Source: Exobasidium rhododendri (taxonomy: Eukaryota > Basidiomycota > Exobasidiomycetes > Exobasidiales > Exobasidiaceae). From it: a stretch of DNA of 64,000 nt. Position 1 is the stretch's first letter, and the number at the start of each line of letters is the position of its first letter. The notes under the pieces are model-generated. The model was given only the letters and a program-made list of their open reading frames with translations. It had not been told where the DNA came from and ran no database searches. The DNA is taken from NCBI GenBank assembly GCA_026210745.1, contig CP110632.1:4215001-4279000 (forward strand), read 5' to 3'. Positions 52,808-64,000 of this stretch are shown piece by piece. The position numbers were made by a program, and so were the translations under genes.

Positions 52808-54340
52808 ATGTCTTTACAGAGCAACGGCAGACTGCCTGCTCCCGGCTCAGCCACAAGAGCCCTACATGCAGATGATGTATGTGGGAGAAAGGGGTGAGGG
52901 AGAGATGCTGATTAAGAATCCCAGCTGACATTGTCAAATTCTTCTTGTATAAGCCTCCTCGCGAAGAAGGTAGCAGTCATCCCATCGCTCCAGACATGCA
53001 GCTCAGCACCACCTTTCGACGACCAGGAAGCAACTCAGAAGCTGGCCGCATGTTTGAAGAGCTGGGTGAAGCTGGCTTGAACTGGCAGGATCCACCCGCC
53101 CATGTCTATTCACGATACACCACCGAAACGAGAGGAAGAGTAGAAAAGGTCCTATCCGGCATACTAGATGCTCATGCTCTCACCTACGCCAGTGGATTGA
53201 CTGCTGCATACTCTGCTATCCTTCACTATTCACCCAGAGTCATTGCAATTCGGAAGGGCTACCATGGTGTACATGCTGGCATCGAGACCTACCAAAGGGC
53301 GCATGACGTCAAGGTAATCGACTTGGACGACGATTATCCCCAGCTGGAGACAAGAGCGAGGGGAGATGCTGTCAATCGAGGTGTACTAGTCTGGGTCGAA
53401 TCACCTCTCAATCCTACCAGTGAAGCGAGGGATATTCAACACTACGCCGATCGAGCTCACGAGGTGGGGGGAACAGTGATCGTCGACTCTACTTTTGCAC
53501 CTCTACAAAACGTCTTTGATCACGGAGCAGACATGGTGATGCACAGCGCTACCAAATACTTTGGCGGTCATTCTGACTTGCTAGCAGGCGTGCTGGCGGT
53601 CAAGTCAAAGCTACAATGGACACAATTATTTGTTGATCGTAGTAATATCGGTGGAATGCCAGGCAATTTCGAAGCATGGCTCTTGCTGAGATCTCTGCGT
53701 ACATTGCAAGTTCGTTGGAAGCAGCAAAGTTCAACAGCACTGAAGTTGGCTGACTGGCTACAGAGCCTGGTAGCAGAGTCGCCTCGACCAAGTACTGAAA
53801 AGGGTGACGAAAAGATCTTGAAGAGCAAAATTGTGACGAGAGTGTGGCATGCAAGCTTTCAACCTAGGACGGATCCCGATCTTGCCAAGGAGCCTCGATT
53901 TGAGGAGGGGGGAAAGAAATTTGACCCTAGTGTGCAGATGAAAGCAGGCTGGCCAGCCACATTTGCCTTTCGGGTAAGGAGCGGATTGAGATGCTTCAGA
54001 GGGTACACACTGCTGACTATCCCTTTCTCCTTCGCTCGTGTTGCACAGCTTGCCAGTCAGAAGTTTGCGAATAGACTTGCTCATGAGACGGAATACTTTG
54101 CAGTGAGAATATCTGGCACACTATCGTATACTAAAGAAGATGGTGGTGCTGACCTCGATGTTGCCTTTCTCGTCCCAGCCTGCTACCTCGTTGGGTGGCG
54201 TGGAGTCGCTTCTGGAGCATCGATTGGGAGCTGATCCTACCGAAGACCCATGCCTAGTTCGCATCAGTGTCGGCTTAGAAGACGTAGAAGACTTGAAACA
54301 AGACTTGAGGAGGGCTCTTGAAGCGCTGTTGATAAAGTGA
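52808..54340 (+). CDS. cystathionine gamma-synthase-like PLP enzyme
   Basis: Four exons, 52808..52893, 52974..53973, 54049..54102 and 54179..54340, give 433 residues of the Cys/Met-metabolism PLP family. The first exon codes MSLQSNGRLPAPG...ALHADDV; the splice gives GRKGSHPIAPDMQLSTTFRRP, matching the usual start of fungal members. Core motifs: HVYSRYTTETR, LTYASGLTAAYSA, IRKGYHGVH, VWVESPLNPTSE, IVDSTFAPL (PLP-pyridine Asp about 200) and MHSATKYFGGHSDLLAG (Schiff-base Lys about 223), then PATSLGGVESL and EDPCLVRISVGLEDVEDL. The protein could act in transsulfuration as synthase, lyase or a related lyase; I cannot separate these by eye. One intron (53974..54048, 75 nt) is a multiple of three without a stop. 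The 3' end is only 30 bases from the convergent RCC1 gene. Confidence 0.9.
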
Positions 54341-54370
54341 TAATACCTAATAGAATGACAGCCATCGCCA

Positions 54371-56212
54371 CTATCTACCTGCCCACCGACCGACCTCGTC
54401 TTTGCCATCTTCCACGAGGACCCACATGACGTCTCTTCCATGCGCGACTTCTTTCACTCCTGCCCCTCTCTGACCTTTGCCCGCCCAGCTCTGCTTCCAT
54501 CCGCTTGTGGCGCTGGGTTCCCACACACGCTGCTCAATGTCATCGGGTGTGAAGCGACTTGCGATCATGTAGCTAGGCCATGGCTTTCTACCACCGATGC
54601 CCAACCGCCCTGCCGGTGTGTTAAGACCCCACACCAGCAGGCTCGTCTCCTTTGTTTGAGGGTCTTGCACCACTGCAGAAGCTTGCTCCAGTCCAGTCGA
54701 GATGCTAGTAGCATTGGACAGTACCTTCTTCAGTTCCAGAGACTCGATCTTCTTTTCGCCTCGTCCAAGGGCTCCAAAGCCAGCAGTGTAGACGTTTCCG
54801 GCCTCTGATGAAGGATGGATTAGTATTAGCTCTCACCTGAACATTGTCCCTCATCCTGTCTGGCTTTTCAGCTCACCATCAAGCACGACGACAAAGCAGC
54901 CGCCCAATCGAATGTCGACGATTCTGGCCTCAGTACAACGAGCAACATCTACCGATGCCTCTGTCGGTCGGTCAATTCGATCGATTGCCTTGCCCCCCAC
55001 AAGACACTGCCCGTACTCGCTATTGCCCCAAGCCCAAATTCGACCGCTCGATGTCCAAAGAGCAGATGAATCTCCCCCTGCTGATATACCCACTATGGGA
55101 TCGTGAGATGTATGAGGAAGCGGTGGCTCAAATTGATTTGGATCGAGTCGAACAAGGCTCGGGGAGCTTATCCTTACCTCTGGATCACCGAGCTGGCCAT
55201 CTGTGTTGACTGTATGGAGGGAGCAAATGGTCAGTCGTCTGTGACGCTGCACAAGTGACACGACGATCACTCACTACCGCAAGTTGCTACTACTTGGACG
55301 CCATCGACATTCATCAACACGACCGTGTGGTCCATTCCCACTGCGATTTTCTCTACTGTGGCATTATGAAAGTCTTTCATTCCTACCTTTCGAGGGGATG
55401 AGAGCAGTTGTAGCTGTGGCTCGCCTCCTTCGCTCAATGCATGCGGTCGTGCTGCACCACCAAGTCCAAGCTGACCAGAAGTGTGGTCTGACAAAGAAAG
55501 GCATCAGTGAGGAGCCTTTCGGGTCATTCATACGACTACACTCACTTCCAAACGCATACAGCTGTGATGTGGCTTTGAAGGAGGTAGCGTGAGACACACT
55601 CTTCGAGAAAGCCAGCCCCTGTGCCCGTCACTCACACTCTGCTGGCCTTCCTTCTCCGGTCACCATCCAGCTGCTCCCAAGACCGCACTGGATGGAGCTA
55701 ATTCCCCCTCTTCCTTCGAAGCCACTTGTCACCATTCCCCACGTACTCTCTTGGCTAGAAAAGCCAAGCCCTAATTCTCCGAACGTATTGCGACCGACTG
55801 CAACGACTTTGTGGAGACCAGAAGGATTGACTCTAGCCTTTCCGAAGTCGTCTTTCTCGGCAGTGTCGTGTAGCGAGACAGGCAGGGCAGGCGGCAGGGT
55901 CGTATAAGACAGGAGAGAATGCGACATTGAAGATGCGAGATGCGTGAAAGAAATGCCCTGCTCTACATCCGCTTGCACGCCTAGCGATAGCAGCCAGTCC
56001 ATCGGTACTTCCTGCAAAGAAGAGCTCTCGCGGTCCAAGACAGATCCAGCCCACAACAGACGCTGTACATGCAGTCTAGCACTGCAGCTGATGCTTCGCG
56101 AACAGTGACGAGACTTCACTGCTGGCTTTATGAGACCTGCAAAGCGATTCCAGAGCATCGCAGGATACGACAAGGGATTAAATGGGGCGCTCGATGCTTG
56201 GCAAGACAGCAA
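54371..56212 (-). CDS. RCC1-repeat protein, probably mitochondrial (RCC1L/Fmp25-like)
   Basis: Five exons, 56212..55636, 55572..55546, 55487..55275, 55209..54877 and 54804..54371, give 527 residues. RCC1 blade signatures recur: VVAVGRNTFGELGLG, QLYAFGNHTSGQLGLGG, NTDGQLGDP, IWAWGNSEYGQCL, GNVYTAGFGALGRG and LLVWGLNTPAGRLGIGG, with the typical gap after each. The N-terminus (MLWNRFAGLIKPAVKSRHCSRSISCSARL from a second Met at 56158) is basic and rich in Ser and Arg, like a mitochondrial presequence, and the architecture resembles human RCC1L and yeast Fmp25 rather than nuclear RCC1. The 27-nt second exon is a micro-exon; its acceptor (55573) was chosen because the other nearby one breaks the frame. 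The start may be 56212 or 56158. Confidence 0.85.
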
Positions 56213-56402
56213 GAGAAGGAGCGAGGAATGGTGTAATTATTTGCTTCTGAACCGTGCGCGAGAAAGGGGAGCGCTCATGAGAAAAAGATTCACAAGAAGC
56301 GACGTAGAGGAAGTATGGATACCTTCGCGCTCCTGTTCTGCCACTGCCACTGCGTCTATACACCTCTTTCACATCGTTCTTTTGAGTCGTCAGTTGCCCG
56401 GC
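56213..56402. promoter_or_regulatory. 190-bp divergent promoter
   Basis: Segment between the starts of the RCC1-repeat gene (minus) and the NIP30-domain gene (plus). The downstream frame is open to 56130, overlapping the RCC1 gene, so I place the start at the later Met. Confidence 0.45.
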
Positions 56403-57198
56403 ATGGAAGCCAAGAGTCTTGCTGCGGGTAGCGTTGCCTCTCGTTTTGTGAGCCAGACGCAGCTCACCGAAGCACAAAAGAAGCGAGAGGAAGATATTCG
56501 GGCGGCGTACGCTCGAATGGGTCAGTCACCCCCGCCGGAGGCATTAGAAGCAAAGGAAGTGTATGATCCCAGGACGCTGTATGAAAAGCTGCAAAGTCAA
56601 AAGGATGCAAAACAAGAGGCTTTTGACGACAAGCTAAAACTTTCGAATCAATTTAGAGGTATTGATGACGCTGAAAGTGAATTCCTGGCGGAGATTGCCA
56701 AGGAGAGACAGCAGGAGCAGTGGCAGAGAGAGAGGGAGATGAGGCTAGAGCTGGATGAGTTCAGGAAGTGAGTTGGGGTAGCGGTATTCAGTGGCTGTTG
56801 ATGAGACTCTCAAACGATGATTGTTTCTCTCTTACCCTCTCAGAGCGGCCTTAGCCAGGGAATCCTCGCCCCCTGGTGCTGTAGGGGCAGTAGCATCCAC
56901 CTCCAAAACCGAGGTTGGCGCCATTTCGCCAATACAGAAGACAGGCTCCACAGCCAGCAAGACGAAGAACAAGCGTAAACGAGAAGGTCTCCTTGGCGTG
57001 GTGAAGAAGAAAGCACCCACGAGTAGCACCTCTGAAACGTCAACGACACAAGGCAGCAAGAGCACGATCGAAGACGGCAAGATAACGCCTAGTAATGACG
57101 ATAAATCGGTAGACACATTAGAGGGCACAGGGGCTCGTACGAAGAAAGTCAAGACACTTGAAGAACAGGAATCCCACACCGTCATCACAAAGGAATGA
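56403..57198 (+). CDS. NIP30/FAM192A-domain nuclear protein
   Basis: Two exons, 56403..56767 and 56844..57198, give 239 residues. The N-terminal half matches the NIP30 (FAM192A/PSME3IP1) domain: SRFVSQTQLTEAQKKREEDI, then EVYDPRTLYEKLQSQKDAKQEAFDDKLKLSNQFRGIDDAESEFL. In animals this protein binds the proteasome activator PA28-gamma; fungi lack a clear PA28-gamma, so the function here is open. The second half is Lys/Ser/Thr-rich with a KKNKRKRE-type nuclear-localisation patch and looks disordered. I start at MEAKSLAAGSVASRF because the upstream frame, open to 56130, overlaps the divergent RCC1 gene and gives an Arg-rich non-family sequence. Confidence 0.88.
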
Positions 57199-57369
57199 GA
57201 GGACCGTGTAATACGAAGGAAGGAATAGCCAGGTCGGAATTGGGTGCCGTGTAGCATGCAGCGAAAACGATTTGAGGAGCGGCGAAGTGCTAATAGAATT
57301 GCATCTTTAGCATGGCCATGGCATGAGCTTGGAACCAAGAAAAAGTACAACACTCACAAAGGCTGAAGA
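57199..57369. other. short convergent intergenic region
   Basis: 171 bases between the NIP30-domain gene and the first secreted-protein gene; no feature other than expected 3' UTRs. Confidence 0.35.
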
Positions 57370-58224
57370 CTACTTTTTGGCAGACTTATACACCGTCACC
57401 TTGTGAAGATTCTCCGGTAGATAATCGTGCGGCAATGGGTATGTGCATTTCTCACCTGCTTGTACTTTGAAAGTTGCAGCATGAATTGCAACCATCATTT
57501 CATCCACAAGCCGGTCGTACTTTGCACGAACGAAGATGGGCTTTCTGCTTGCATTATTGATCTCAAGTCGAGACGTTCGAGAAGAGGCCACGACCGTGAC
57601 CTTTTCTTTCTTCACCTTGAAAGTCGCCAAACTCTCACCCTGGACATACCTCGTGGCCAGCTTTTCCAGGTCGAAGCTTGCAGTGAACGAGCTGTCGACG
57701 AGGCAAGTGAAGGAGTCGCAGACGTTCTTGCACTCTTTGACCCTGTGATCGCCGCTCCTCGACTGGATCTGCGGCGACAGTGGACCTTTGTATGCGGTCA
57801 CAGACTTGACAGCATTCACATCTAGAGAAGAGGTCCAAGAATGGCTGCAGGATTGGTCTACCGGAGTCAAGAGCATCAAGGTGTGATCTTCGACAACTCC
57901 CTCGTGATATCGACTGTACTTGATCGCCACGCGGAGCTCCTTTTCTTCTTTGTTGTTGATGGTCGTGAGTGACGACGTTCGACCCACTGCAACATCATCA
58001 AAGACGACTTCGACCTTGTGCTTGGATGCAGGATTTGAAGGGTAATAAGTGACGGACTTTTGATCGAAAGGCTCGTCGAAGGACACTCTTCGGAAGGCAG
58101 AGTAGAGATCGTAGTCATCGGTGGGACACGTTTCGGCGTCACAAACGACTAGACAAGGCTTGCTCACTTGATGAGCGACGACGATGGAAGGTATCAAGGT
58201 GATCAGATGGATGAAGAACTTCAT
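57370..58224 (-). CDS. secreted protein with two tandem four-cysteine units
   Basis: A single exon of 284 residues beginning with a signal peptide (MKFFIHLITLIPSIVVA, probable cleavage after Ala17). The mature part contains two copies of one unit. Unit 1: Cys24, Cys28, Cys33 and Cys126. Unit 2: Cys165, Cys169, Cys174 and Cys260. Both have Cys-x3-Cys-x4-Cys, then 86-93 residues rich in beta-type Val/Thr/Lys alternation, then the lone Cys followed about 15 residues later by a KSVTAYK / HKVTVYK strand. Both also share an INN plus K-Y-[SD]-R stretch in the middle. I know no family with this pattern. The same layout recurs singly in the two neighbouring genes on the + strand (58966 and 60205). No enzymatic motif or TM segment is seen; a secreted structural or effector-like protein is likely but unproven. 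Confidence 0.85.
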   Translation of the reverse strand: MKFFIHLITLIPSIVVAHQVSKPCLVVCDAETCPTDDYDLYSAFRRVSFDEPFDQKSVTYYPSNPASKHKVEVVFDDVAVGRTSSLTTINNKEEKELRVAIKYSRYHEGVVEDHTLMLLTPVDQSCSHSWTSSLDVNAVKSVTAYKGPLSPQIQSRSGDHRVKECKNVCDSFTCLVDSSFTASFDLEKLATRYVQGESLATFKVKKEKVTVVASSRTSRLEINNASRKPIFVRAKYDRLVDEMMVAIHAATFKVQAGEKCTYPLPHDYLPENLHKVTVYKSAKK

Positions 58225-58965
58225 GTCGAGGTAGGAAGAGGGAAAGAGGGAGAGACTGTCAGAGAGACGAAAAGGAGAAGAGAGAAGAAGACATAATCAA
58301 TTTAACGTGTAGCAGTTCGTCGCTTGTATGTGCAATCTCAACTCCGCCAACAAGACGATCTTGGTTCCTGTGCCCTTCCCGAGTGTGGCAAGAAGTAGAG
58401 TCATTGCTGTGATCGTGCGGTCAAGCAGCCGAGAACTCGCAAATGTGTTCCTGGCGTCAGCGCGATCACATCAGAAGACTCGCCCTTGTCAAGATCACTG
58501 CTGCATGGGGGCGGCTTTAGCGGTGGTCTACTCATCAGCGATGAAGCGGAAGAAGATGTATTCCAGCTGGTCACATTCTCAGCGTTCATCGCACTGCAGA
58601 GATCGGGCACTGTATGGTAATAGACGACGCTGTGTGCAGAGTGTGATAGGGTCGAGTAGCGTTGTCTGCAAAATCATCGGTAGGAAAAGACGCCAGATCT
58701 CTCGCTTGCTCTATTGCAAAAACTTCGTCGATGTCGGAGTGTCGTGTTCAGCTGTTTAAGCGGAGAAAGGCCGCTCCTGTGGCGCTCCCAGTAATGTAGC
58801 ACCGTCCAGCGCTTGTCGGTCTACAGAGGAGAGTGATGAAAATGGTCCTGCCACACACGGAGGCACCACCAGCCCATCCTCTCCATTCCCTGTCTCTGCC
58901 TCATCTTTACCCCTTCCTACCCAAGGCCTCCAGTCTAGACAGACCATCGCTGAGTCACGCTCGCA
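58225..58965. promoter_or_regulatory. divergent region between secreted-protein genes
   Basis: 741 bases between the two divergent secreted-protein genes. Frames of 62-143 codons exist (for example 58328..58759 plus and 58756..58971 minus) but lack a signal peptide and the cysteine layout. I see no extra or broken copy of the unit. Promoters of both genes must lie here, so co-regulation is possible. Confidence 0.45.
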
Positions 58966-59514
58966 ATGCACTCGCCACGCTTCATCCTCTTTTCATCCGT
59001 CGTGTATATCTTCACAGCCTTGCGCAGCTTGGTCGCCGCCGCACCATCGCAATTGAATCAAGCACTACCCTGCACCGAGTGTGTTGAGCCCGACTGCGAT
59101 TTGTCCATCATACACTTCAAGACGCCACTACGAGAAGCGGGTCTGCCTGTTCCAGAGCAGTCGTTCATCGAAAGAAAGTACTTCTACGGCGCCAACTTTA
59201 ACGTCACCTTCTTCAGGGATCAAGCATCGCACACTTCTCAGGTGTTGACAAAGGGGGTCATCTCCAGTAGGCTCTACCCACACGACGCTGTCATCAGCTT
59301 TGACTCGGTCTGGATCGATAATCCCTATAAGAGGCAGTCCACTACCAACAGCATTGTAGCCCACGAGAACCCACCTCCTACGCTTCTCTACTACCTAGTT
59401 CATCAAGGGGAGACATGCACATTTGACACCGCAAGCAAAATGGTCGGCTTTCCAGAGCAAGGCGGTAACGCCGACGTCTTTACAAAGTTCAATGACTTGG
59501 TGCCTTACGGCTGA
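58966..59514 (+). CDS. secreted four-cysteine protein
   Basis: A single exon of 182 residues. A signal peptide is visible (hydrophobic FILFSSVVYIFTALRSLVAAA, probable cleavage near Ala26). The mature protein has Cys36, Cys39 and Cys44 (C-T-E-C-V-E-P-D-C) and a lone Cys151 in QGETCTFDT, 107 residues later. These four are its only cysteines, consistent with two disulfides. YFYGANFNVTFF and AVISFDSVWID align with strands in the neighbouring copies. An NVT site could be N-glycosylated. The protein resembles the units of the flanking genes in spacing more than in sequence, as expected for a fast-evolving duplicated family. Function unknown; no homology recognised. Confidence 0.83.
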   Translation: MHSPRFILFSSVVYIFTALRSLVAAAPSQLNQALPCTECVEPDCDLSIIHFKTPLREAGLPVPEQSFIERKYFYGANFNVTFFRDQASHTSQVLTKGVISSRLYPHDAVISFDSVWIDNPYKRQSTTNSIVAHENPPPTLLYYLVHQGETCTFDTASKMVGFPEQGGNADVFTKFNDLVPYG

Positions 59515-60024
59515 GACATGCAAGGTAAGGATGCTTATGAGTTCAGCAATACCTACCTTCCTGTGCTGACCCACATTCTCTCCATCTCAAGCATCCCTCG
59601 CCTTGTTTGCTCATCAAACGAGCACATGATGAATGTTGTACCTCTCTCAGACTGTGATAACATCGATGCTGTCGCTATACCTCTGATAGGGTGATCATGG
59701 CAAGGAGTGACGTTTGGATTTTGTGACGTGCCAAGGGGGGAGTCCCTCTATACTTTGTCCCATACTTGAAAGGCACTGGTAGGCATGAGCCATTTATCAC
59801 AATTATGTGACTCAGTAGCAGAACGTTGACAACATCGAGGAATTAGTGACAGCTGCGGTTGGATGCAGACTCTTTGTCTTGCTCTTTATGCAGACGTCAC
59901 ATCACTCACGTTGATCAGCCGCATCTTTGAAGAGCTCTAGATGCTCACACACCGGTACCGTCGTTGTTTCTCACACAATGGACAGCCACGCCGACTCTGG
60001 CCTCGGAAGGGGAGTCCCCCTTTT

Positions 60025-60062
60025 CTTGCCGGGAGTAGCGATTGCTTCGCTGATGCGGCAAG
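60025..60062. repeat. inverted repeat, two-tier hairpin
   Basis: CTTGCCG (60025-60031) pairs perfectly with CGGCAAG (60056-60062), and inside it AGCGA (60037-60041) pairs with TCGCT (60047-60051) around a five-base loop. It lies about 140 bases upstream of the third secreted-protein start, before the TATA-like box. It could be a protein-binding inverted repeat in the promoter or an RNA structure; it is not a tRNA. Confidence 0.6.
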
Positions 60063-60113
60063 CCCTCCCACCTGCGCCACCGACATAAGTCCCCTCCCTG
60101 ACTACATGAAGGC

Positions 60114-60120
60114 ATAAAAG
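60114..60120 (+). promoter_or_regulatory. TATA-like box
   Basis: ATAAAAG in the context GGCATAAAAGAGG lies 85-91 bases upstream of the start codon of the third secreted-protein gene, a usual distance for a strong fungal promoter. It is the clearest such element in the window, but assigned by eye. Confidence 0.45.
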
Positions 60121-60204
60121 AGGTGGCACTTTACCTTCTACATCCTTACCCCATCATCCAAGCTCTCCCAAAGTCTCCTGCCTTTCCCATTATTAAGAGT
60201 CGCC

Positions 60205-60777
60205 ATGCTCCAAGTGTACCGCTTTGTCACCGCACTCGCGTTTTTCGCGCTCTGCAATCTTGTCCTCGCCTACACCGATCCAAGCAGCAACGCTTCATTC
60301 GATTTCAGTCGCCTGTCCCCTGGCGATTCTCTCATTGAACACTGCGAGATCTGCGAATATCCTAGCTGCAACATCAAAGACTACACGACCTCTACATCCT
60401 TGAAGGATCGTCTCGTCCCTGACACCAACACCAACGAAGGCGCTCAAAAGATCTACTATTCAAATGATCTAGTGGTCATCTTTGACGAGAGTAAAATTGC
60501 CACTGTTTTTATGGGAGAAATTAAGAATAGTCACGGCTCAGATATCGTCGTCTCCGTGGACAGTGTCATCGACATCTCCCTTCTCGACAGCAAAGCTAGG
60601 AACGGTGGTGAGGATGACTACAAGCCTTCCAAGATGGCCAGAGTGGTGGAGACAAAGCCCATCTACCTGCTCAGTAAGGCCGGTCAGAGATGCCAATTCA
60701 ACTTGTACCCCAAGGGACTTAAGACGCTGGACGGCAAAGTGACGGCGCACTACAAGAGCTTGTCTTCAGAAGACTAG
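60205..60777 (+). CDS. secreted four-cysteine protein
   Basis: A single exon of 190 residues with a signal peptide (MLQVYRFVTALAFFALCNLVLA, probable cleavage after Ala22). The mature part has Cys47, Cys50 and Cys55 (C-E-I-C-E-Y-P-S-C) and a lone Cys163 in KAGQRCQFNL, 108 residues later, almost the same spacing as the upstream gene (107). IYYSNDLVVIFDE aligns with the TYYPSNP...VEVVFDD strand pair of the two-unit protein, and IVVSVDSVID with AVISFDSVWI of the second. An NAS site near residue 29 could be glycosylated. A TATA-like box and a hairpin lie upstream, and a 15-base direct repeat follows the stop. Function unknown; a secreted, possibly host- or wall-directed protein is inferred from the layout alone. 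Confidence 0.85.
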   Translation: MLQVYRFVTALAFFALCNLVLAYTDPSSNASFDFSRLSPGDSLIEHCEICEYPSCNIKDYTTSTSLKDRLVPDTNTNEGAQKIYYSNDLVVIFDESKIATVFMGEIKNSHGSDIVVSVDSVIDISLLDSKARNGGEDDYKPSKMARVVETKPIYLLSKAGQRCQFNLYPKGLKTLDGKVTAHYKSLSSED

Positions 60778-60822
60778 GTCTTGGATGGAACGAAACAGAC
60801 TTTGCGCACTTTGAAAAGGGAG

Positions 60823-60856
60823 AAAGACTTTTGCAAGTGATAAAGACTTTTGCAAG
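60823..60856. repeat. 15-bp direct repeat with 19-bp period
   Basis: AAAGACTTTTGCAAG occurs at 60823-60837 and again at 60842-60856, in the short space between the third secreted-protein gene and MCC2, probably in their overlapping 3' UTRs. Confidence 0.85.
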
Positions 60857-60911
60857 GCATAGACACATCTCCCCAAGATTTGTAATACAGATCAGGCACT
60901 GACTGGCCCAT

Positions 60912-62706
60912 TCACATTCTATACACACCGCTGGCATGATTGTTCCCGTCCCAAGCGGTATGGCCCTGGCCCCTTTCCCTGCTCTTTCTCCGTCCTTCGT
61001 TGGCGACGCTCAGGGTGAGTGCCAGCACGGCACGGGTATCCATTGGTCTGATGATACCATCGTCCCAGAGTCGCGCGCTAGCATACTTTGGCATGCTTTG
61101 GGCTTCGATTTGATCTCGCAGTCCACTTGTCTTTGTAGGGTCAGATGAGATGCTTGACATGACACTGGCGAGCTGATCACTGCCCATCACGCCCACCCTC
61201 GCGTTCGGCCACATGAACAAGAAGCGGGGACTGTATGCTCTGCCGTTCATTCCGTAATTGCCAGCACCGTAACTGCCGCCAATCTAAGAGTGCAGGAGGA
61301 GTGTACAGTGTGTGTGTACGAGGTTCAGCTAGTCGCCTTCTACATACATCCCTCTCCTTAACTTCACTTACGACTATCGTGATCTTGGGAACGTCAGCAC
61401 ACGCTACCGCCCGGACCATCTTAGCACCATCTTTTGCAATGCCAGATTGTTCTGCTCTTTGACCGACCATGTATCCAGTCACGTTGACCAAGAAGACCAA
61501 GGGAATCTGACGTTGATTGCACAGTTGCACAAAGCTCGTAGCTTTCTTGGCCGCCTCGCCAAACAGTATGCTGTTATTCGCAATGATGCCGACCGGCTGA
61601 CCGGCGATAGAAGCAAAGCCAGTGACGATCGTCGTGCCGTAGAGCTTCTTGAATTCATGGAAACGAGAGCCGTCTACGATGCGAGCGATCACGTCTCGCA
61701 TGTCGAAAGGCTGTCGAAGGGATGTAGAGACAATGCCGTGCAGATCGGTCGCAGGATACAAAGGCGCATCAAACGTAGGCGCTGTCTCCTTGCTGCTTCT
61801 CGTCGTCGTCGTCCCTGCTGCTATCCCTAAATTCGCCATCGCTTCCCGGGCGAGCTCGATTGCGTGTGAATCATCGATTGCCAGATGATCCGTCACACCA
61901 CTTTCACTCGAATGCATCAGGCCACCGCCCAACGTCTCGTCGTCAACAATCTCGCCTAGCGCTGCTTTCACTAGAGGCGGACCTGCCAAGAAGATGGTCC
62001 CTTGATTCCGAACAATGATGTTCTCATCGGCCATGGCAGGAACATAAGCTCCACCTGCGACACTGATACCGTGGACGACACTAATCTGAGGAATCCCAAG
62101 TGCGCTCATCTGAGCCATCTCGGCAAAGATTCGACCAAAGTGATACTGATCCGGGAATACTTCAGCTTGGTGGGGTAGAGCCGCTCCTCCTGATTCGACC
62201 AAGTAGATGCATGGTAGTCGATTCTCTCGCGCTATTTGTTGTGCTCTGAGATGTTTCTTGACAGAGATAGGATAGTAGGATCCCCCCTTGACAGTGGGAT
62301 CGTTGGCCAGGATCAACGTCGGAGAGCCTTGAACGTTTCCGATTCCAGTAATGACTCCTCCAGCTGGAACTTCATCTTCTTTCCCATACATACCCCACCC
62401 CGCCAACGTGCTGAGCTCCAAGAAGGGACTGCCAGGATCCAGGAGAGCACCAATACGATCTCTGGCCAGCATCTTTCCCTTTGCTATGTGCCGGTCTCTT
62501 GCCTTTGAAGAACCTCCCTTTGCTATCCGCGTATGAAGGGAGTCCAGGTCGTCTACAAGGGCACTCATTGCGGCGTGGTTATTCCTGTATCCCTCTGATG
62601 CGCTATCGACATTGTTGGACAGCACACTGAGCGAGCCCGAGCTACCAGAATACCTCCGATTACCACTCGCATGACATACAGTCCGAAATGCCGTCCTGCT
62701 GAACAT
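60912..62706 (-). CDS. MCC2: 3-methylcrotonyl-CoA carboxylase beta subunit
   Basis: MCC carboxylates 3-methylcrotonyl-CoA in mitochondrial leucine breakdown; this subunit holds the carboxyltransferase. Two exons, 62706..61372 and 61283..60912, give 568 residues, the normal length. The N-terminus [20 protein letters not shown] is a presequence-like start. Family motifs: [104 protein letters not shown] and [11 protein letters not shown]; the second exon opens with [34 protein letters not shown]. The tail [15 protein letters not shown] is typical. An upstream in-frame Met at 62826 is not preferred because it would precede the presequence with unrelated residues. The alpha (biotin) subunit is not in the window. 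Confidence 0.95.
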
Positions 62707-64000
62707 CCTTGACAACTTCCCGCGTTGCTGCGATGTACAAAAGATGTAAGTGAATGTTAGGGACGACCAGGGAAAAATTAGAGTCGCCAAGTCTGAATTG
62801 TGCGGGGGTGAATACAATTTAAGCATCTTATAATTTCCGGCCCTTTTTCCGGCTCGTGCGAGACAATAGGAAGGAAAGGTGCATGCTTGCCTTTCTTTGT
62901 ATGCTGAGGAGGCAGCTTCTGAGAGAGAGAGAGAGAGAGAGAGAAAAGAATGGTCATACGCGGCTCACAGTGGCAGGCCCACAGAGGAGGTGAAATGAAG
63001 ACATGATTGAAGTCTGACGAACCATCGTAGTAGCGAGACTGCGTGAGATTAATCGAAGCGACTTGACAACGCTCGGAGCTTGTCCGCTCGATGACCCCTC
63101 AACTTATTCCTCTGAACCCTCTTTCCCCCTCCCTTCCGTCCGTCCGTTCTTGCGATCAATCATGCTCCCGGATTCTCACAATCTTTCTTTGGTAACCTTA
63201 GATGCTCGTCAGCGGTGATGCCCTGACGTTAGGCCGTCGTTTCCCTTCTCGCTCCTTGAGCGGACCAAATGTCCGTGGATGAAAATCACACACATTGCGT
63301 GTCATTCGTCCTGTGAAGACCGGAGGAGATCGTCAGAGCAAAGAAAATGTGCCGAAATCGTCGCAAGAGCCCTTGAGATCTGGCTCGATTGTTCTGCCAA
63401 GGAGCACACAGCCGAGGGTCCTCATTGCAAAGTGGCATAAAGGACATTTTTTTAAGCTTTCGTCCTTGATGATGATGCTGATGCTGCTGCTGCTCCCTAG
63501 GCACTTTCACGCAGGCGAGCTTTGTCCTTGCCCCTGTGACGAGTAGCGGCAGGTGGGACCACCCTCCTTTTCCCCGATTCGCATAGCAAAATGGCCACGG
63601 AGTCCCGCAAAAGCCACGTTAGTTCTTTAGAGCGACGTAAGGTACCCCTTTGCGTAGACCCCCTTTAGATGCAACCGCGACGAGTGACATCACCGTCTCT
63701 GCGTCTTTACCATATTATAATACAAAAGACACGCGTCCTCGAGAAAGATTTATATCGAGAACCAAATGATAATACGTCATATTGCATATAGGCAGATACA
63801 TTCTCGCGTCTTGTGGTACTATTGCCGATCTCAGATGTATAGCGTGGCTCTCCCGCTATGCTCGATTAGACATCGTAATGTCGCATCGTAGATTCTAGAT
63901 TGAGGCCAGACCGGATTGAGTCTTCGATGAGCGACGGAATATACGTGGAAGATGGGGCAGGAGAAAAGGATAAATAGAGGAGGATTTAGGGTCGTACACC
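62707..64000. promoter_or_regulatory. 1.3-kb terminal region without a gene
   Basis: Upstream of MCC2 to the right edge. It includes a 24-base GA run, CT-rich and AT-rich blocks (notably 63705-63800), and no frame with a recognisable domain. It probably contains the MCC2 promoter and perhaps that of a gene beyond the edge. Confidence 0.4.
62921..62944. repeat. (GA)12 microsatellite
   Basis: Twenty-four bases of perfect GA, about 215 bases upstream of the MCC2 start codon, therefore in or near its promoter or 5' UTR. Confidence 0.9.

Follow-up and report, generated by a model that had tools for sequence, protein, structure and literature searches.

Three adjacent genes for putative secreted proteins with a common four-cysteine layout in Exobasidium rhododendri

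A stretch of 64,000 nucleotides from Exobasidium rhododendri (positions 4,215,001 to 4,279,000 of contig CP110632.1, here C3, in assembly GCA_026210745.1; the whole stretch is called the window) contains three adjacent genes, A, B and C, whose predicted products start like secreted proteins and carry the same arrangement of cysteine (Cys) residues. Do these genes belong to one family, and what could such a family do? Our analysis suggests a family that has duplicated locally and diverged, whose members are secreted beta-sandwich proteins stabilised by disulfides and most likely serve in host interaction, as effectors, a reading that we place just above an even chance. The evidence comes from the rare Cys layout, the homology between units, the clustering of the genes and predicted structures.

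Reading frames, cysteine layout and secretion signals

Genes A, B and C (C3:4272370-4275777) are intronless and adjacent, and the open reading frame (ORF) list and translations give each an uninterrupted frame from ATG to stop. A and B are transcribed divergently across 741 bp. The initial annotation had described three adjacent intronless genes with signal-peptide starts and four copies of one Cys layout; the open frames, the hydrophobic starts with cleavage candidates and the layout were all found as described. Within the window, the features are the following.

57370..58224, reverse strand: gene A, 284-residue putative secreted protein with two tandem four-Cys units (ORF list, translation, Cys positions)
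58174..58224, reverse strand: predicted signal peptide of gene A, residues 1-17, cleavage between VVA and H (hydropathy and (-3,-1) rule)
57847..58155, reverse strand: unit A1, Cys24-Cys126 of gene A (Cys positions, motifs, AlphaFold model)
57445..57732, reverse strand: unit A2, Cys165-Cys260 of gene A (Cys positions, motifs, homology to A1)
58225..58965, no strand: intergenic stretch between A and B, 741 bp (gene coordinates)
58966..59514, forward strand: gene B, 182-residue putative secreted protein with one four-Cys unit (ORF list, translation, Cys positions)
58966..59043, forward strand: predicted signal peptide of gene B, about residues 1-26 (several cleavage candidates)
59071..59418, forward strand: unit B, Cys36-Cys151 (Cys positions, motifs, alignment)
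60205..60777, forward strand: gene C, 190-residue putative secreted protein with one four-Cys unit (ORF list, translation, Cys positions)
60205..60270, forward strand: predicted signal peptide of gene C, residues 1-22, cleavage between VLA and Y (hydropathy and (-3,-1) rule)
60343..60693, forward strand: unit C, Cys47-Cys163 (Cys positions, motifs, AlphaFold model)
60113..60119, forward strand: TATA-like CATAAAA, 92 bp upstream of the gene C ATG (motif match only)

The Cys residues are at 24/28/33/126 (unit A1) and 165/169/174/260 (unit A2) in gene A, at 36/39/44/151 in gene B and at 47/50/55/163 in gene C, which has an additional Cys17 within its signal peptide. All four units follow the plan C-x2/3-C-x4-C...C, and the spacing between the third and fourth Cys is 93 (A1), 86 (A2), 107 (B) and 108 (C). 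The last Cys lies in a G-[EQ]-x-C context in A2, B and C and in SCSHS in A1. These spacings and contexts are those first reported. The accompanying claim that the units share strands stood in part: V-x-V-[FI]-[FD]-like strands are present in A1, B and C, whereas A2 has VTVVAS instead and the D-S-V strand is confined to B and C.

Each N-terminus contains a 10-residue stretch with a mean hydropathy of 2.4-2.6, followed by cleavage candidates (between VVA and H in A, VAA or AAA in B, between VLA and Y in C). Beyond residue 30 the highest 15-residue mean hydropathy is at most 1.67 in the three proteins, and no strong later membrane span is seen. On this rule-based prediction from hydropathy and the (-3,-1) rule, the products of all three genes are very probably secreted.

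That the three frames are genes is carried by their standing side by side with signal-like starts and one Cys layout. ORF length alone proves little, because Markov shuffles of the 4.2-kb stretch yielded an ORF of at least 182 residues in 18 of 300 cases. Codon usage in the genome is weakly biased; judged against 2000 random stretches of the window, the codon score was equalled by 39 for gene A and 23 for gene C, whereas that of gene B is not discriminating (315). The GC content at third codon positions is 0.60-0.65 in genes A-C, higher than the 0.47-0.53 of the window's ten large training ORFs.

Rarity of the layout and relationships among the units

The layout was scanned for in 257 ORFs of at least 120 residues in 316,354 bases of the E. 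rhododendri genome (window, flanks and samples); about 194 of these 316 kb surround the window, and the rarity given here applies to the DNA examined, not genome-wide. Three ORFs had the strict layout (a first gap of x2/3, a second of x4, a Cys-free run of 60-130 residues and a final Cys); all three lie in the window cluster and are among the 73 with signal-peptide-like starts, for which residue shuffles expect 0.01 cases per scan. When the second gap was widened to 4-7 residues, 12 of the 257 ORFs and 6 of the 73 signal-peptide-like ones (0.81 expected) had the layout, and this relaxed form is therefore not specific. The six signal-like ORFs are A, B, C, two probable further members named D and E, and one in the sampled piece L041 that we rejected as a CV-repeat artefact and that has no Pfam match. 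The remaining six have no signal-like start.

C3:4328366-4328887 (L016:9366-9887): probable member D, about 53 kb to the right of the window genes
C3:4300764-4301387 (L014:1764-2387): probable member E, about 25 kb to the right of the window genes

D and E were recognised by eye from a signal-like start, the Cys frame and the C-terminal motif. Their frames are looser than those of the window genes, with gaps of x3 and x7 in D and x2 and x5 in E and one extra Cys each in the unit, and the start of D is only marginally hydrophobic (2.15). Their codon scores do not stand out, being reached by 1415 (D) and 369 (E) of the 2000 random stretches. Together, A to E probably form a five-gene array of about 56 kb. 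The cluster of three genes thus lies where the initial annotation placed it, but the family probably reaches past positions 57370..60777, with D and E within 56 kb.

Sequence comparisons were judged against shuffles in which Cys residues were held fixed in local alignment (1000 shuffles) and in profile-profile comparison (200 column shuffles); global alignment was judged against 500 shuffles. The local A1-A2 score has a z of 9.2 and was equalled by none of 1000 shuffles, and the B-C score has a z of 4.0 and was equalled by 3. By these alignments, the two units of gene A are homologous and so are genes B and C, which agrees with the description of duplicated, diverged, Cys-framed and secreted-looking proteins in a smut relative. 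Gene A probably arose by duplication of a unit within it, and B and C by duplication of a gene. In profile-profile comparison, none of 200 shuffles equalled the score of A with D (81 columns), and A and D are paralogous; 2 equalled A with E, and 21 equalled B/C with E. The comparisons support two groups, {A1, A2, D} and {B, C}.

Joining the two groups and adding E draws on the layout, the location, weak scores and the matches of the A1 and C models. The four A-to-B/C pairs were weak in local mode, with 58 to 211 of 1000 shuffles equalling the score, and global scores were weak for A1-B (121/500) and A2-B (368/500). Two four-unit profiles run over 144 kb gave D E values of 0.04 and 2.3; for member E the values were 4.6 and 6.4. 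All of these fall short of the inclusion threshold and lie amid chance matches. Weak profile-profile pairs are also found between B/C and D (44/200) and between D and E (146/200). Leave-one-out profiles, in which both A units were removed together, gave scores that were equalled, per 1000 shuffles, by 98 for A1, 9 for A2, 53 for B, 4 for C, 35 for D and 4 for E.

These scores bear on an alternative in which gene A has no kinship with genes B and C, and two separate secreted families arrived at a common Cys layout by convergence. The local scores of A against B and C, close to those of shuffled controls, and the score of B/C against D fit such an origin. However, convergence would have to account for the recurrence of one strict layout in three neighbouring genes where 0.01 cases are expected, for a profile score of A with B/C that just 9 of 200 shuffles equalled, and for global scores of gene A with C that 9 (A1) and 8 (A2) of 500 shuffles equalled. 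The predicted structures of A1 and C also match an overlapping set of sandwich folds, ToxA included. We therefore regard convergence as unlikely, and consider it fairly likely that all four window units are one family, as initially proposed. This view owes more to the layout, the shared location and the similar matches of the models than to sequence, where the link from A to B and C is weak.

Extent, surroundings and database relatives

Profile searches extended over a further 50 kb on the right side and 87 kb on the left found nothing above the inclusion threshold, and samples of contigs C1 and C2 and of other parts of C3 (L001-L008, L027-L036, L038-L041) contained no member above it. Searches of the whole genome with single proteins A, B, C, D and E each recovered the query alone. 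A nucleotide pattern written for one variant of the N-terminal Cys clip, which by design misses A, B, D and E, hit seven places, namely gene C and six without a family-like continuation by eye. The genome assembly is 17.6 Mb in four contigs, three of chromosome size (7.1, 5.5 and 5.0 Mb) and C4 of 88,290 bases.

The surroundings are housekeeping genes, as first described: neighbours encode a citrate-transporter-like protein, an enoyl-CoA hydratase, a pyridoxal-phosphate enzyme of Cys/Met metabolism, a Fyv6-like protein and a carboxyl transferase, and a gene for a Ytp1-like protein lies to the right of the window. Repeats listed in 54000-64000 are one 22-nt two-copy repeat and one 21-nt inverted pair.

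Relatives were sought among 5.8 billion database proteins, from which candidates had to share five-residue words with the query. With phmmer, nothing was found at an E value of 10 or below for gene A among 521 such candidates, or for gene C among 109 (gene B was not a query by itself). A six-unit profile that included member E found two proteins at an E value of 1 or below among 425 candidates, both of the lineage of member E; genes A-C and D were not among its matches. These negatives are of limited force, because shared five-residue words were needed and because the window's own genes and D went unreturned. The first match (P0006) is the hypothetical protein CBS101457_006689 [Exobasidium rhododendri], the C-terminal 161 residues of member E. 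The second (P0007) is a 222-residue metagenome protein with 96 of 132 residues identical to member E in the domain (73%) and 22 of 75 before it (29%), evidently an orthologue by this comparison. Since member E was in the profile, the two matches are no test of its membership.

CBS101457_006689 begins at residue 48 of the member E ORF, hence without the signal peptide; the upstream start is supported because P0007 has a signal-peptide-like start. Conservation in a metagenome sets member E apart from its orphan neighbours and could mark it as a slow-evolving, ancestor-like member. The profile search, although built in part from genes A-D, brought up no database entry for them, unlike for member E from the same assembly. 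These genes may be absent from public annotation, or the database may omit the window's own proteins.

Pfam and NCBIfam gave no family above cut-off for the window proteins; NCBIfam PRK11366 and Pfam HEPN_LA2681, MPM1 and DUF5008 were rejected as matches below it. The ASH domain (PF15780) scored 21.9 bits on gene A against a gathering cut-off of 27, with an E value of 0.0002 arising from two stretches (best residues 68-102). On unit A1 alone it scored 12.6 bits (E value 0.15), and A2 and D had no match at an E value of 1 or below. ASH proteins are intracellular, and we take this weak, sub-cut-off likeness to an ASH/Hydin immunoglobulin-like domain as a hint of fold only. In searches of PDB sequences, single proteins gave a best E value no better than 0.5; profiles gave 8z3i (E value 0.061) and 8hku (E value 0.18). 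The initial annotation knew of no described domain with this signature. That holds for Pfam and NCBIfam families, but the general kind is known from Mig1-like four-Cys and ToxA-like sandwich families.

Predicted fold, possible function and known systems

AlphaFold models of A1 and C, both of medium confidence, are all-beta and have overlapping sandwich matches. Ptr ToxA and Avr2 are among the natural-structure matches of both models, with middling Z scores; matches to TRAP, arrestin, MATH and CBM29 were taken as common sandwich noise. We think that the units probably fold as beta-sandwiches. Each unit would be a domain of roughly 130-150 residues. In the simplest scheme, its N-terminal clip (C-x2/3-C-x4-C) is anchored to the remainder of the domain by disulfides, and the last Cys, close to the C-terminal strand, takes part in one or more of these. 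Strands and loops could change freely while the fold persists. The detailed topology and the Cys pairing may differ from this scheme.

E. rhododendri, of the Exobasidiales in the Ustilaginomycotina, makes galls on rhododendron. Species of the genus are described as biotrophs whose symptoms on the host are leaf and fruit spots, witches' brooms and galls (PMC13010171). That study counts putative effectors per Exobasidium genome, and the part available describes no families. A limited literature search turned up no account of a family of secreted proteins with this layout from Exobasidium. For genes A-C, an effector role is somewhat favoured, with any binding partner a matter of conjecture. As an alternative, the proteins could be lectin-like or carbohydrate-binding-like modules located at the cell surface or wall, or could be secreted to act on microbes, as the predicted all-beta fold, the CBM29 chains that top the Foldseek list for C and the saprotrophic dimension of Exobasidium named in a paper title (PMC13010171) would allow, but those CBM29 matches are at noise level (probability 0.09-0.20, root-mean-square deviation 14-18 Å) and we find this distinctly unlikely.

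If the genes are an effector array, they provide a defined set of candidates through which Exobasidium may alter its host, and they allow one to test whether the ToxA-like or Mig1-like fold expanded beyond the lineages known to have it. As a family they are new, in a plant pathogen that has received little study; the pattern is familiar, and fold and function are putative. Of the marks of an array of sequence-unrelated, structurally similar (SUSS) effectors, clustering and a Cys frame are present, and a kept fold is seen only in the medium-confidence models.

The ToxA-like effectors Ptr ToxA, Fusarium Avr2 and flax-rust AvrL567, whose mark is a beta-sandwich of seven or eight strands, are all-beta and similar in size to the A1 and C models, and Avr2 has a long-range disulfide whose span resembles that of the putative one in the window units. 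By eye, A1, A2 and C show only a looser N-[NS]...[IL]-x-V-x resemblance to the ToxA-like motifs LxVxIxN, LILTxY, WxxQ and WxxN(S)NxIxVxI (PMC8715435). The window units differ in their extra N-terminal Cys, the lack of a sequence match, the middling Z scores and the two-unit form of gene A. No ToxA chain is among the 50 Foldseek matches listed for C, and PDB-sequence profile searches found no ToxA-like chain. Pfam Toxin_ToxA (PF11584) has no match in the genome, but none in 14 control genomes either. Both Ascomycota and Basidiomycota have ToxA-like families (PMC10942635). In a Venturia study, identity among the ToxA-like proteins that it compares is at most 12.7%, and the study cites a few members in Ustilago maydis (PMC9632046); against that, a study of gall formers reports, of the well-characterised families, only three KP6-fold proteins and one RALPH-like protein in U. 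maydis, and two ToxA homologues in Taphrina deformans (PMC12503489). It is tentatively conceivable, though on the unlikely side, that the genes are an undescribed Exobasidiales effector family in which a ToxA-like sandwich carries a clip of three Cys at its N-terminus and which has grown both into a 56-kb array and into tandem units within one protein, and that the ToxA-like fold expanded independently in this smut-relative branch.

The Mig1-like proteins of U. maydis have 13 members with four conserved Cys and two disulfides, and some of their genes lie in one genomic region (PMC12503489); induction while the host is colonised is a further mark of the family. Their relatives in Sporisorium scitamineum, three signal-peptide-bearing proteins of 185-197 residues and one more of 203, have nearly consecutive locus tags (PMC9409688). 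They are secreted, about 190 residues long in S. scitamineum, partly clustered and extremely divergent in a smut lineage, and genes B and C match them in size, predicted secretion, clustering and number of Cys; the window genes differ in the two units of gene A and belong to another fungal class and host. The window family could thus be an Exobasidium branch of the Ustilaginales Mig1-like proteins. We find this doubtful: the comparison is by description, and the protein searches with genes A and C and the six-unit profile returned no Ustilaginales protein. A literature search joining Mig1, ToxA, Ustilago maydis and fold gave nothing beyond PMC12503489. We describe the window genes as a new family of the Mig1-like/ToxA-like general kind and file it under neither, membership being unproven. 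Divergent effector pairs such as Avr2-SIX5 in Fusarium (PMC10942635) resemble the A/B arrangement, yet their partners are of different structural families. In the Tin2-like cluster of U. maydis, likened here by description only, seemingly unrelated secreted neighbours share one fold and have diverged from one ancestor (PMC9816061).

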